Below, one piece after another: positions 4,591 through 28,094 of a stretch of DNA of 29,799 nt. Source of the DNA: a virus; the IMG/VR virus record IMGVR_UViG_3300037516_000232, positions 1 through 29,799 of that record, one strand, 5' to 3'. The notes beneath the pieces were generated by a model, which ran no database searches, had not been told where the DNA came from, and saw nothing but the letters and a program-made list of their open reading frames with translations. Every line of letters begins with the position of its first letter. Within the stretch, counting starts at the first letter, position 1. The position numbers and the translations under genes were made by a program.

Positions 4591-5001
4591 ATGGCTTACT
4601 TAAATTCAAGTGACTATTTATTGCAAATTCAGGACGTTAATTTGCAACAAATTATTAATTCAAACGTCGCAATCAGGGAAAACGCGGACTTATTGGCAAT
4701 TTCCGAAGCGCGTTCGTATTTAATACAAAAATACGATTTTGACGCGGAATTATTAAAAACAGGGACAGCACGCGACCCGCAATTATTGGCGTACATTATC
4801 GATATTTCATTATACCATTTGCACAGTCGAATTGCACCGCGCAACGTTCCCGAATTAAGAATAACGCGTTATGAAAATGCAATCGCTTTTTTAAAAATGT
4901 GCGCATTTGGCGACGTTACGCCGAAGTTGACGCCAATATCGCCCGCACAGGGAAACCGCATAAGATACGGCGGAAACAGTAAAAATATAAACCAATATTA
5001 A
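4591..5001 (+). CDS. Head-tail connector, Mu Gp36-like (DUF1320)
   Basis: A 136-residue protein with the features of the DUF1320/Gp36 family: an N-terminal YL...DY segment, a helix SEARSYLIQKYDF, then LLAYIIDISLYHLHSRIAPR and a short C-terminal helix AIAFLKMCAFGDV before a disordered tail. Family members are small helical adaptor proteins of the Mu-like head module. It sits between terminase and portal, 2 nt before the portal start. Its likely role is at the head-tail junction. Confidence 0.75.
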   Translation: MAYLNSSDYLLQIQDVNLQQIINSNVAIRENADLLAISEARSYLIQKYDFDAELLKTGTARDPQLLAYIIDISLYHLHSRIAPRNVPELRITRYENAIAFLKMCAFGDVTPKLTPISPAQGNRIRYGGNSKNINQY

Positions 5002-10403: not shown

Positions 10404-10931
10404 ATGGAATTAATAGAAATTTGGAAAAGTGTTTTAAATTATGAGGGTATTTATGAAGTTTCTAATTTAGGTAATATAAAATCATTAGACAGAAAAATAC
10501 CCGACGGTAGAAAAGAAAATTCTTTTAGAATAAAAAAAGGAAATACAATAAAAGCAAGTAAATTAAAATATAGTCAAGTAATTTTATGCAAAAATAAAAT
10601 AAGAAAAGCGCATTTATTACATAGAATTGTAGCGACTGCATTTTTAGAAAATAAACAAAATAAGCCTTGCGTAAATCATAAAGATTTAAACAAACAAAAC
10701 AATAAAATTGACAATTTAGAATGGTGTACTTATTCAGAAAATAATATACACGCAATAAAAAACGGAGCAAAAAAACCTTATTGGATTGATAAAAAAAGAA
10801 GTCAAGAAACAAAAGACAAGATTTCATTATCAAAAAAAGGTAAATTAAGCAATAGAAAAAATTATATAGTAAGTCAAGAAACAAAAGACAAGATTTCTAA
10901 TACATTAAAAAACAAACATATTAAAAAATGA
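10404..10931 (+). CDS. Free-standing HNH homing endonuclease (NUMOD4-HNH-NUMOD3)
   Basis: A 175-residue nuclease with three parts. NUMOD4 is at residues 5-55 (IWKSVLNYEGIYEVSNLGNIKS). The HNH core is LLHRIVATAFLEN, then V-N-H92-K-D ... N-N-K-I-D-N-L-E-W-C-T ... E-N-N-I-H-A. The NUMOD3-like C terminus has SQETKDKIS twice (133-141 and 157-165), each a DNA-contacting helix unit. Such enzymes cut intron- or gene-less alleles and spread by repair. The gene is much more A-rich and poorer in CG than its neighbours and is inserted between tail genes, overlapping the next ATG by 4 nt, so it is probably a recent mobile insertion. Confidence 0.93.
   Translation: MELIEIWKSVLNYEGIYEVSNLGNIKSLDRKIPDGRKENSFRIKKGNTIKASKLKYSQVILCKNKIRKAHLLHRIVATAFLENKQNKPCVNHKDLNKQNNKIDNLEWCTYSENNIHAIKNGAKKPYWIDKKRSQETKDKISLSKKGKLSNRKNYIVSQETKDKISNTLKNKHIKK
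10800..10897 (+). repeat. 26-bp direct repeats inside the HNH gene
   Basis: The same 26 bases (beginning AGTCAAGAAACAAAAG) occur at 10800-10825 and 10872-10897, 72 nt apart and in the same reading frame. They encode the two SQETKDKIS units. Exact identity at DNA level points to a recent duplication of a DNA-binding module or recombination between repeats. Confidence 0.9.
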
Positions 10932-11773
10932 AAATACTTAATATTTCAGACATTAGCAGTTCAAACGCCATGCCTATAAAATCAGGGACATTGCAATTTT
11001 TACAGGACGCACACAAAGAAACAATCGCGGGGTTAGTTACAAACATTTTGCCAAACCCAATAACGGGGACTATTTACATTTTATCGGGTTGCGTAAATTC
11101 AGGAACGGGAAGCGTTTATAATATTTCGGCGGGGGTTATTTACTACAATGGCGAAATTTTTAATTTTGACGGAATAAGTTTCACATTAACGGGTTTGGAG
11201 AAAGCATACGCGAGAATAGAAACGACGCAATACATAACCAACGCCGACCCCGTACAATTTACGGACGGGGTTAATAGAAACGTTCACAATATTAGAAAAT
11301 TTGTCGTTGAAAACACAATCACATCGTCGGGGTTACCTGAATTTAAGGACTTTGTAACCGTTCCGAGTAGTTCGTTAAGGGGCGATTTAAAAGAAATCGT
11401 TTGCGACGACGTTTATTTAAACAAATATTTTGACGCGACAGGACTTGGACGTTTAGAACGCACAGGTTGGGCGATAACTAACGGACAAAATGGAACGCCA
11501 AGCGACGCGGGTAAAGTTATAATATCTTACGGCGGGGGTTATACACTCGGACAAACGGGCGGGGCGGAAACGGTAACGTTAACTGAAAACCAAATGCCAA
11601 TACATAGCCACGGCGGAGTACCTCAAGTTGTAACGGACACGGATAGGGGGATTGGTAATCTCTCTCTTTTTAGCCTCGACAATACGCCGTCGTCAACAAG
11701 TTCCGCAGGGGGCGGACAAGCGCACAACAATATGCAACCATTTGTCGTTCGTTTACGAATAATGAAATTGTAA
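10928..11773 (+). CDS. Tail fibre with phage collar / microcystin-dependent-type C-terminal domain
   Basis: A 281-residue tail protein. The N-terminal 170 residues are beta-rich and probably anchor and extend the fibre. The C-terminal part has the collar-type pattern: G-W-A-I-T-N-G-Q-N-G-T-P (about 180-191), a G-rich LGQTGGAETVTL segment, ENQMPIHSH (220-228), and the final HNNMQPFVVRLRIMKL, typical of the NMQPy....yIIk ending. The usual PDLRGRF is changed to PSDAGKV. Collar proteins contact the host or other fibres. Its ATG overlaps the HNH stop (ATGA), so the nuclease gene may have displaced the original upstream junction. Confidence 0.8.
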   Translation: MKILNISDISSSNAMPIKSGTLQFLQDAHKETIAGLVTNILPNPITGTIYILSGCVNSGTGSVYNISAGVIYYNGEIFNFDGISFTLTGLEKAYARIETTQYITNADPVQFTDGVNRNVHNIRKFVVENTITSSGLPEFKDFVTVPSSSLRGDLKEIVCDDVYLNKYFDATGLGRLERTGWAITNGQNGTPSDAGKVIISYGGGYTLGQTGGAETVTLTENQMPIHSHGGVPQVVTDTDRGIGNLSLFSLDNTPSSTSSAGGGQAHNNMQPFVVRLRIMKL

Positions 11774-11777
11774 AAAA

Positions 11778-11930
11778 TTGAGTATTTCAAAACAAAGACG
11801 CGTTACGGCGTACCCAAGCCCTTTGAACTTTAAAAAATTAAAGGAAACAACGGACGCCCGAAAAGTAAGTAAAAGCAAAGTTATAAACGAAGCGTTGACC
11901 GTCTATTTTAAAGATAAAAAAACAATTTAA
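11778..11930 (+). CDS. Small ribbon-helix-helix (CopG/Arc-like) protein, TTG start
   Basis: Beginning at TTG 11778, 7 nt after the fibre stop's first base, 50 codons run to TAA at 11928-11930. The product has the RHH order: a basic N-terminal strand (QRRVTAYPSP), first helix (LNFKKLKETTDARKV), then S-K-S-K-V-I-N-E-A-L-T-V-Y-F as second helix. It is too short and without ATG, so easily missed. RHH proteins bind DNA palindromes as dimers. An 8-bp inverted repeat lies 40 bp downstream at the head-operon promoter, making it a candidate local regulator. Confidence 0.6.
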   Translation: MSISKQRRVTAYPSPLNFKKLKETTDARKVSKSKVINEALTVYFKDKKTI

Positions 11931-11970
11931 TTAATAATTTTATTGTTTTTATTAAAAAAAAGTATTACAC

Positions 11971-11991
11971 AATTTAGAATTTATCTAAATT
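11971..11991. promoter_or_regulatory. Inverted repeat, candidate operator
   Basis: AATTTAGA (11971-11978) and its exact reverse complement TCTAAATT (11984-11991) are separated by ATTTA. The palindrome ends 15 nt before the -7 box at 12007 and thus covers the -33 region of that promoter. The position fits an operator for a small DNA-binding protein such as the RHH protein encoded just upstream; a T-poor tail argues against a terminator. Confidence 0.45.
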
Positions 11992-12006: not shown

Positions 12007-12014
12007 TACATTTG
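12007..12014 (+). promoter_or_regulatory. Bacteroidetes -7 box, probably leaderless, for the head protease-capsid operon
   Basis: TACATTTG matches TAnnTTTG and is followed by four bases and then the ATG at 12019, the same spacing as at 1922/1927. There is no coding sequence for about 75 nt upstream. Transcription would begin at or next to the start codon. A -33 TTG is not evident; the inverted repeat occupies that place. Confidence 0.55.
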
Positions 12015-12018
12015 TATT

Positions 12019-13107
12019 ATGATTTATTGCATTGACGAAAATATCGACGAACCAATTATGTTAATCAATACCCACATCGGCTATGACGACGACGAGGGAA
12101 TGGGAATTGACGGCGCATTGTTTCAAAAAGAATTGTTATATTTAGACACGTTGGGAAAAAAACGTATTCAAATATGGATTAATTCAATTGGCGGGGTTGT
12201 TATGGACGGTTATTCGATAGCATCGGCAATCATTAAAACTAAAACACCCGTCGACACGTTTAACGTTGGTATTTGTGCGAGCATTGCAGGCGTTATTTTC
12301 ATGTGCGGACGAAATCGCGTTGCAATGGATTACAGTTTGTTAATGATACACAAACCAAGCGGGGGAAATGACGAAAAGGTTTTGGAATTAATGCAAGAGA
12401 GTTTAGTCACAATGTTAACAGCAAAAAGCGGGTTAACAATGGAGCAGGTTTCGGCATTAATGGACGCAACGAGTTGGATTAACGCGACCGAATGTTTAAA
12501 AATGGGGTTTGCTACCGAAATTGAAAAAACGTCGCAAAACGACGACACAATAACGTCGACATATTACGCCGACATATTCACGCAAGCGAATAAGATTACA
12601 AACAAAATTTTAAAACCAATAATTAACACAAAAAAAAGTATGTTAAAAGTAACAAACAAACTTGGACTTAATGACGACGCAAACGAAGACAGCATTTTAA
12701 ATGCAATCGAAAAAATCGTTAACAGTTCAACGACAGAAGCCGAAGCAATGAAAAAAACAATTTCTGAAATGGAAATGGAATTGACTTCGTTAAAAGAAAA
12801 GTACGACGCAATGATTATCGAAGTAGAAACCGAAAAAGAAGCGTCAGAAGAAAAAGAAGCAATGGACATGATTTCCAATTTTGCAAAATTGGGACGTATT
12901 AAAAACGACGACGAAACCGTTAAAGTATGGGTTAACCTTGCAAAAGCGGATTTCGAAGGAACAAAAGCAATAATCGAAAATTTGCCTTTGAACGTAGTTG
13001 CAAACAAAATCGAAACCGTAGTAAACAAAGAAGAAACCATTTTCAAAAATGGCGAAGACTTTTTAAACTTTGAATTAAAACAAATTAACAACAAAAACAA
13101 AAAATAA
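12019..13107 (+). CDS. Head maturation protease (ClpP/S14-like) with C-terminal scaffold region
   Basis: A 362-residue protein. Residues 1-170 are a ClpP-type serine protease: IQIWINSIGGVVMDGYSIA (oxyanion-hole strand), then F-N-V-G-I-C-A-S88-I-A-G-V-I-F-M-C-G with S88 as nucleophile, and L-L-M-I-H111-K-P with the catalytic His. ATSWINATECLKMGFATEI follows in the place of the usual d.wm.a.EA..yGl.d. The acidic triad residue is not obvious. Residues about 200-360 are helical, highly charged Glu/Lys coiled coil ending in FLNFELKQINNKNKK, typical of a scaffold cleaved during capsid maturation. It lies 5 nt before the major capsid gene. Confidence 0.87.
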   Translation: MIYCIDENIDEPIMLINTHIGYDDDEGMGIDGALFQKELLYLDTLGKKRIQIWINSIGGVVMDGYSIASAIIKTKTPVDTFNVGICASIAGVIFMCGRNRVAMDYSLLMIHKPSGGNDEKVLELMQESLVTMLTAKSGLTMEQVSALMDATSWINATECLKMGFATEIEKTSQNDDTITSTYYADIFTQANKITNKILKPIINTKKSMLKVTNKLGLNDDANEDSILNAIEKIVNSSTTEAEAMKKTISEMEMELTSLKEKYDAMIIEVETEKEASEEKEAMDMISNFAKLGRIKNDDETVKVWVNLAKADFEGTKAIIENLPLNVVANKIETVVNKEETIFKNGEDFLNFELKQINNKNKK

Positions 13108-13112
13108 ACAAT

Positions 13113-14099
13113 ATGTCATTAAGTACAACATCGAATTTTACCCAATTTGAAAAAGGGTTTTTCATTACAGAAGCCGTTATCGGTTTAGACACAATTAACA
13201 AGGGTTTGGCATACGTTGCCCAAGGGGTTAAAAATGACCAATACTCATTCCCTGTATTAACTGCAAACGTAGTTTTGAACCCGAGAACAAGTTTACCTGT
13301 TGACAATAACACTACCGTTTTGTCAAACAGAACTATAACGTTAGGAGCGTTTGAAGCGTTCGAAATCTTTGACCCGTCAATTTTCGAAAATCATTGGCAC
13401 GTTTCAGAACTTGCCGACAAAATGTTGTCTCGTTCATTGCCTGCAACTTTTGTGAATTATTTAGGCGGTTTTTATACCGAAAAAACTTTCGCACCTGTTG
13501 AGAGAATGATACACGAAGGTTCAACATCTTACACAACGTCAGCGAGTACAACCGCATCGGTAAATTATTCAATCAAACATTTTGACGGTTTAATCAAACA
13601 AGCCTTAAACGCTACGACTCCCGCTTTGCAAGTTGGAACGCCTGTCGCATTAACAAGCGCCAACATCATTTCTAAAATGGAAGCGGCTAAAGCATTAATG
13701 CCAAAAGCATTGTTAGCAAGCGCAGACCGTTACAAAAAATTGAAATTTATTGTTTCAGTTGAAGACGCGCAAAAATACGAAGAAGCATTAACCTCAACAA
13801 CTTACAAAAACAACGATACAACCGAAGCAGGTATAAACAAATACAAAGGTTTTACAGTTGAAGTAACTTCGGGTTTACCTGAAAATACTTTCTACTTTTG
13901 CGAAGCAACTTCGCAAGTGACGTCAAACATTCAATTGGCAGTCGCTTCGTTGGATAACCTTTCGTTTATCGTTGACAAATACGTTTCTTACGCACAACTT
14001 TGGTTTTACAAAGCCGTTGCAAAAATGGGAGTTGGTATTGCAAAACCAAGCGAGTTTGTAATTTACACAACTAAAACGCTTGCGAGTTTCAACGCATAA
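13113..14099 (+). CDS. Major capsid protein
   Basis: A 328-residue protein directly after the protease/scaffold and followed by a terminator, the normal place and size for a major capsid protein of HK97 fold. It is codon-optimised-looking, with fewer rare codons and less lysine than neighbouring genes. It has an extended N terminus and a long helix region (KMEAAKALMPKALLASADRYKKLKFIVSVED), close to the spine helix plus P..l......v.s......Y pattern of capsid proteins of Bacteroidetes phages. The fold assignment comes from context and pattern, not from a diagnostic motif. Confidence 0.8.
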   Translation: MSLSTTSNFTQFEKGFFITEAVIGLDTINKGLAYVAQGVKNDQYSFPVLTANVVLNPRTSLPVDNNTTVLSNRTITLGAFEAFEIFDPSIFENHWHVSELADKMLSRSLPATFVNYLGGFYTEKTFAPVERMIHEGSTSYTTSASTTASVNYSIKHFDGLIKQALNATTPALQVGTPVALTSANIISKMEAAKALMPKALLASADRYKKLKFIVSVEDAQKYEEALTSTTYKNNDTTEAGINKYKGFTVEVTSGLPENTFYFCEATSQVTSNIQLAVASLDNLSFIVDKYVSYAQLWFYKAVAKMGVGIAKPSEFVIYTTKTLASFNA

Positions 14100-20116: not shown

Positions 20117-20635
20117 ATGGCGGATTTAACGAGAACAATTCAGGAATTAGCAGGAACGCGAAATCAGGACGAAGTTAAATTGTACCAATGCAATGTTAAT
20201 TCGGTCGATTTAAGCAAAAGAACGGCAAACGTTACAACGATAACAGGGACGGCAAATATAACGTTTGACGCATTGTTAACGGCGGGAATTTCGGACGGGT
20301 TTGTAATTACGCCCGAAATTGATAGTATGGTTTATGTTATCATGTCAAAATATACATTGCCTTTTATTGTTACATTTTCGGACATTACGCAATTTGACAT
20401 CATGGGCGGGGAGTTTGGCGGATTGGTTAAGGTTGTGGAACTTACGCAAAAATTAAACAGTTTGGAAAATAAAGTCAACGAAATTATTAGTACCTTTGGA
20501 ACACACACGCACACCGTTACAGCGGTAGGCGCGCCAACTTCGCCAACATCGACCCCAATTGTGGGAAATTTGACGATTTCACAGCGCGCCGACATTGAAA
20601 ACATCAATATTAAACACGGAAAAAATGGCGATTAG
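20117..20635 (+). CDS. Baseplate spike protein (gpV / gp45-like)
   Basis: A 172-residue protein with an OB-fold-like N-terminal half (YQCNVNSVDLSKRTANVTTI) and a middle strand GFVITPEIDSMVYVIMSK (the P.vGs.v.v). A short coiled region follows, and a C-terminal THTHTV motif precedes a predicted beta-helix-like tail. Gp45/gpV-type spikes often use His pairs to bind iron at the tip. It forms the membrane-piercing tip under the hub. It overlaps the next gene by 11 nt. Confidence 0.78.
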   Translation: MADLTRTIQELAGTRNQDEVKLYQCNVNSVDLSKRTANVTTITGTANITFDALLTAGISDGFVITPEIDSMVYVIMSKYTLPFIVTFSDITQFDIMGGEFGGLVKVVELTQKLNSLENKVNEIISTFGTHTHTVTAVGAPTSPTSTPIVGNLTISQRADIENINIKHGKNGD

Positions 20636-27909: not shown

Positions 27910-28094
27910 ATGCAAAAAAAAAACAGGCTACAAAATCAATTGCGCCCGTCCTTTCACTTAAAAAAATACGGCATTATGAGAACCGAACCACAAAGTTAAT
28001 GTTTTTTATTTAAAAACAAACCCAATAAAAAGGCGTTTCTTATTTAGAATTATTATAAATTAACAAAAAAGATAATTATTTTTATTTAATTGTG
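27910..28094. other. Intergenic region between late and next transcription unit
   Basis: A very AT-rich 185-nt stretch after the terminator. I see only a 29-codon ATG frame (27910) that begins within the terminator tail and an A10 run at 27914-27923. Nothing else is supported here; an origin or attachment site is possible but no repeat or palindrome shows it. Confidence 0.5.

Follow-up and report, generated by a model that had tools for sequence, protein, structure and literature searches.

A 50-residue RHH protein is probably a dedicated on-switch for virus head production in a phage family with Bacteroidota-type promoters

The locus and the RHH gene

The window, by which we mean the whole stretch of DNA that was analysed, is 29,799 bases long and constitutes one IMG/VR record. 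The gene order is Mu-like: terminase, portal and Mu F/G-like genes precede the locus described here and are followed by a tail-fibre gene, a 50-codon open reading frame, an AT-rich gap of 88 bases, a protease gene, a probable capsid gene and a tail sheath gene. A gene for an HNH homing endonuclease (NUMOD4/HNH_3, 10404-10931) is situated just 5' of the tail-fibre gene. An Rfam search of the window returned no match. The features referred to below are as follows.

10928-11773, plus strand: tail-fibre gene, directly upstream of the RHH gene
11778-11930, plus strand: RHH (CopG/Arc-like) regulator gene, 50 amino acids, TTG start
11918-11950, plus strand: AT-rich hairpin, a weak terminator candidate after the RHH gene (-6.3 kcal/mol, z -2.0)
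11960-11972, no strand assigned: predicted RHH operator O1, AAGTATTACACAA, with core GTATTACAC at 11962-11970 and centre at 11966
11971-11991, no strand assigned: palindrome O2, AATTTAGA-ATTTA-TCTAAATT, a clade-specific second element
12007-12014, plus strand: -7 promoter element TACATTTG, compared with the Bacteroidota consensus TAnnTTTG
12019-13107, plus strand: ClpP-like head maturation protease, first gene of the head operon
13113-14099, plus strand: virion structural (probable capsid) protein, in the same operon as the protease (phrog_20525 and phrog_1623, virion structural protein)
28040-28062, plus strand: O2-like sequence TTATTTAGAATTATTATAAATTA, upstream of another promoter

The RHH start lies 5 bases past the tail-fibre stop, so the RHH gene would be the last gene of the upstream operon. 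In some relatives the hairpins following the gene are GC-rich and stronger (-13.9 to -17.6 kcal/mol in L027, L028 and L197) and resemble intrinsic terminators, which further suggests that the upstream operon closes with the RHH gene and that a new one opens with the protease.

A preliminary description of this DNA had reported a 50-codon, TTG-initiated frame beside a palindrome and had read its product as a CopG/Arc-like regulator; the frame is present as described, and the assignment is borne out by a PHROG match, a predicted fold with the RHH helices and purifying selection. The PHROG family 'Arc-like repressor' matched weakly (E=5e-4), CopG-like repressors were matched as well, and CopG was also found in a profile search, whilst no Pfam family was matched. 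The AlphaFold model, a single-chain prediction with a pLDDT of 87, places helices at residues 15-28 and 32-46 and an extended segment at residues 7-13, thereby reproducing the short N-terminal strand and two helices within some 45 residues that characterise the RHH superfamily. The best solved structures retrieved with Foldseek were StnY and CopG (TM approximately 0.65-0.73, probability 0.8-0.96), with E-values of only 0.2-0.6, as expected for a protein of 50 residues; Arc was also among the matches, though it fitted the model less well than CopG. CopG aligns to the protein without gaps, and by this alignment residues 8, 10 and 12 would be the outward positions of the strand, making R8, T10 and Y12 the predicted base-contacting residues. 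The alternation of outward, base-contacting strand residues seen in RHH proteins is thus predicted here too, and residue 10 covaries with operator bases, as set out below.

The same start codon position is occupied by TTG, GTG or ATG in relatives. A frame broken in relatives had been named as grounds for abandoning the proposal, and the frame was found to be open in all of them. Pairwise dN within the window clade was 0.02-0.16 against a dS of 0.28-1.9, and dN was far below dS in all pairs save a few that were saturated; on these substitution rates, the window RHH gene is a real gene under purifying selection.

Scans based on the protease retrieved more than 100 relatives among metagenomic viral contigs, some of which are cut. 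Among the 70 distinct loci with enough upstream sequence, 64 carry an RHH gene at this place, between tail fibre and protease or, in a few, divergent beside the protease. The gene is therefore neither an insertion between the tail-fibre and head genes nor part of a self-contained cassette, as had been supposed; standing at the end of the tail-fibre operon, it is, judged from these loci, a near-universal gene of this large tailed-phage family, whose promoters are of the Bacteroidota type. In L192, L193 and L198 the RHH gene is reversed beside the protease and the usual operator is missing, which may represent a distinct, divergent layout. In L028 (4081-4919), L174, L176 and L163 the RHH gene is separated from the protease promoter by one or more reverse-strand genes; this variable spot corresponds in place to the acr-aca locus of phage DMS3.

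No relatives of the RHH family were found among 50,697 phage records, nor in named phages, and a search of a genome collection returned distant proteases only. The nearest named phages found were Winoviridae of Flavobacterium (lotta8, FPSV-S1), with a protease identity of only 28-33%. These share the order of Mu-like head genes, small genes, ClpP-like protease, capsid and sheath, but have no RHH gene at the corresponding place, where lotta8-2 has a different gene of 60 amino acids.

Promoter and operator candidate upstream of the protease

The Bacteroidota -7 consensus, TAnnTTTG, is placed at -12 to -5 (PMC6847099). The -7 element TACATTTG begins 12 bases before the protease ATG, so transcription is predicted to start at or adjoining the A of the ATG at 12019 and the head operon mRNA is probably leaderless. 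The distance from -7 element to ATG ranges from 9 to 24 bases across the promoters of the family; leaderless-type spacing is common among them, and leaderless mRNA is unusual for Flavobacterium (PMC6847099). The head promoter combines a good -7 element with the lack of a fixed TTG at -33; that lack says little, since the -33 element is weak in Flavobacterium generally (PMC6847099).

Upstream of the protease there is a family-wide inverted repeat, WWGTRNNNYACWW, distinct from the palindrome of the preliminary description and, on its distribution, a better candidate for the RHH operator. A palindromic motif, WWGTRSSSYACWW, was fitted de novo to the 100-base stretches that precede the protease gene in 35 dereplicated loci, with the window clade left out, and reached a log-likelihood of 97 as against 14-21 in shuffled sequences; it replaced a degenerate first scan with AAGTRNNNYACTT, which was too loose. 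The site in the window (O1) is a weak match of 6.7 bits, conserved across the clade.

The distance between operator and promoter is narrowly distributed. In 35 of 46 promoters, 31-32 bp separate the operator centre from the -7 element downstream of it, which puts the centre at -43/-44 given the published placement of that element (PMC6847099). Another seven promoters have 41-42 bp (41 in the window clade, 42 in L368 and L371), one helical turn further; the window operator is accordingly centred at -53 from the predicted transcription start. In a later scan, for which the expectation was set beforehand, the 31-32 bp spacing recurred in 15 of 16 new loci with a clear motif.

In six family records the protease promoter is the only place where the motif occurs between genes, apart from a few matches in coding ends, and in most records the operator is present once, adjoining the RHH gene. 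An autoregulatory copy before the tail-fibre gene was considered and rejected, the matches there being coding ends (...YY-stop). A role as global late activator was likewise set aside on the single-copy operator of most records and the lack of a Mor/C gene. G021 is an exception to the single copy, with motif-like GTAACTCAC sites at 4669 and 20873; these precede two other genes by 38 and 44 bp and may constitute a small regulon in that phage.

Gene and operator are not invariably found together. L029, L031, L173 and L191 have neither, L163 and L345 have the motif with no RHH gene detected nearby, and a clear motif is missing from about 20 of 68 RHH-operator pairs, for example those with SVRAYLPP-type strands. 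L328, L331, L355, L361 and L369, whose RHH strand reads SVR/SIR-x-YLPP, share GGCATA(C/T) upstream of the protease, which may be the operator variant of these proteins.

Covariation between protein and operator was assessed by mutual information over some 42 RHH columns in 48 dereplicated pairs with a clear operator, the operator having been fitted on part of the same data, though without reference to the protein. Strand residue 10 ranked first against operator bases 3-4 (z=11.4; next column 5.8), and did so in all of 20 resamplings when the set was thinned at 50, 60 and 70% identity (21 to 32 representatives). Among pairs that are 40% or more identical, a shared residue 10 goes with shared bases 3-4 in 82% of cases, and a differing residue 10 in 4%. 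V10 is paired with GTG, Q10 with GTAA, C10 and D10 with GTAC, K10 with GTAG or GTAT, and the T10 of the window clade with GTAT; pooled, V or I at this position accompanies a G at base 3 in 22 of 23 cases, compared with 5 of 36 for other residues. The sisters L174 (K10, GTATCCTAC) and L176 (I10, GTGCCTCAC) differ in both partners. The later scan supports this code only in part: after dereplication, 5 of 6 V/I10 loci and 4 of 6 others were correct (Fisher p=0.24; 0.04 before dereplication), and the code is noisy at its edges. Overall, protein and operator change together, and binding of the RHH protein to the predicted operator is well supported by the covariation.

Direction of regulation and the reported palindrome

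The earlier proposal that the RHH protein acts on the protease-capsid promoter is supported, and the protein would do so through GTATTACAC, a member of the family-wide motif that covaries with the RHH strand. The repression it had envisaged is not favoured, as a distance to the -7 element that is fixed and in helical phase points rather to activation. The explanation that we consider best, and probably correct as a whole, is that the protein is a dedicated regulator, and specifically an activator, of the protease-capsid operon through a GTR-N3-YAC operator. The protein would be the final product of the preceding structural operon, which comprises packaging, baseplate and tail-fibre genes; as a dimer it would fit its two-stranded sheet into the palindromic operator, where residue 10 of the strand would read bases 3-4. 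Bound at about -43/-44 (-53 in the window), it would most likely recruit RNA polymerase, since a fixed and phased site upstream of the -7 element suggests an activator that touches polymerase, as does Mor of Mu from -43.5 (PMC4390567). With the gene ending the first operon and the site starting the second, a relay is suggested, in which expression of the first operon would switch on the second. Against the activator reading stand the weak and displaced operator of the window, the noise of the residue code out of sample, the loci in which motif or RHH gene was detected singly, the extra sites of G021 and the preponderance of repressors among characterised RHH proteins (PMC5569661).

The main rival, which we consider unlikely, has the protein bind the same GTR-N3-YAC site as a repressor, covering the upstream part of the promoter and so delaying or dampening the head genes. 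Motif and covariation serve this reading equally, most characterised RHH proteins being repressors that occlude promoters (PMC5569661), and a protein at the operator would also cover the upstream contact region of RNA polymerase. A repressor would, however, need no fixed distance of 31-32 bp with jumps of one turn to 41-42 bp, and a repressor produced from the last gene of a structural operon would silence a second such operon at the very stage when both are required.

The operator of the preliminary description was the palindrome O2, TTTAGA-N5-TCTAAA, read by an Arc-like RHH repressor. The palindrome does lie 40 bases past the RHH stop codon and in the place of a -33 element, its right arm being 16-23 bp upstream of TACATTTG. 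Taken singly it is within chance, as 29% of dinucleotide shuffles of the 88-base AT-rich gap separating RHH gene and protease contain at least one inverted repeat whose arms are 8 bases or longer (P=0.29), but in eight clade members both arms are invariant (apart from one T/C) around a variable 5-base spacer, and chance was therefore rejected. None of the 14 close relatives with an RHH gene lacks it; L027 (40% RHH identity) has it too, and L410 has it nearly intact. The Arc operator site, too, has an N5 spacing. Length and core, 21 bp with TAGA, likewise recall the 'TAGA box' of Arc (21 bp, PMC12645479).

Co-conservation with the RHH gene, as expected of an Arc-type operator, was not observed: most relatives carrying the gene, all phages of the GYLKP type among them, either lack the palindrome or have a broken copy of it. 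It is broken in L337 and L344, lost in L358 and absent from L162 and L197, all of which have the contact residues R8-T10-Y12, and it is unchanged in L015 despite S at residue 10. L161 keeps it, near the protease, with no RHH gene found in a 17-kb contig, a soft point given that this contig is cut off upstream. A scan covering all the viral contigs placed the palindrome near an RHH gene of the family only in the window clade and L027. Together with the poorer fit of Arc to the model, this makes the palindrome an improbable RHH operator; we read it instead as a second, clade-specific element between operator and -7 element, presumably with a binder of its own.

A related sequence in the window, TTATTTAGAATTATTATAAATTA, precedes a -7 element, TATCTTTG, by about 67 bp, and two relatives have conserved it (G006 near 20349, G008 near 13554); its 21-base core is identical to the core at the protease promoter of L337. 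Most matches of the palindrome scan outside the family are an unrelated intergenic box of the form TTAGAATNATTCTAA, and an intergenic AATTTAGAATNATTCTAAATT box is frequent in viral contigs outside the family (for example L058, L086 and L100). These boxes probably represent Fur/PerR-like sites.

It is highly improbable that another phage or host factor reads the GTR operator with the RHH gene as a linked passenger, an idea to which L163 and L345 (operator, no RHH gene detected) and the use of non-RHH Mor/C at the same kind of position in Mu-like phages (PMC4390567, PMC4461284) lend something, and against which stand the residue-10 covariation, the lack of a Mor/C gene in 12 records and the single operator per record adjoining the RHH gene.

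Comparison with known regulators and meaning

The closest functional parallels are Mor and C of Mu, likewise phage-encoded activators of structural gene operons, acting at Pm (Mor) and at PI and other late promoters (C). Mor acts as a dimer on an inverted repeat whose centre is at -43.5 (PMC4390567), and the promoter of gene I, which encodes the protease, requires C (PMC4461284). Gene order is Mu-like and the regulated gene is a protease in both cases, and a palindromic site near -43.5 of a promoter without a good -35 element is seen here in 35 of 46 promoters (-53 in the window). Mor and C, however, have a fold of their own as opposed to the RHH (CopG) fold; the RHH gene, by contrast, closes a structural operon directly beside its target, with one operator per genome in most records. 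A search for the Mor/C family (PF08765) in 12 records gave no match. By this comparison, the RHH family would work like Mor/C without being a member of that family.

CopG and Arc share fold and sequence pattern with the window protein but are repressors that autoregulate, whereas the window gene's own promoter bears no site and the operator of its product occupies an activator position; their operators also differ in sequence. AmrZ of Pseudomonas is an RHH protein able both to activate and to repress (PMC3325190), but is not a phage protein and is not tied to one neighbouring operon. In the Mu-like Pseudomonas phage DMS3, aca1 encodes a small DNA-binding regulator directly upstream of the protease I gene (PMC8027618); Aca1, however, represses the acr promoter, whereas the site of the window RHH protein belongs to the protease promoter.

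To our knowledge, late-gene timing in Bacteroidota phages is poorly known. We tentatively suggest, at somewhat less than even confidence, that these proteins form an undescribed class of RHH late-gene activators, near-universal in their phage family, in which protein and operator co-diverge by a residue-10 code and link structural operons in a relay. If so, one protein of 50 residues and one 9-bp site per phage would set head expression in at least 60 distinct phages, the RHH protein filling the role that Mor/C has in Mu. There would then be dozens of natural, mutually distinct RHH-operator pairs, a ready set for working out RHH-DNA recognition, which would also be useful as orthogonal small regulators working with Bacteroidota promoters.
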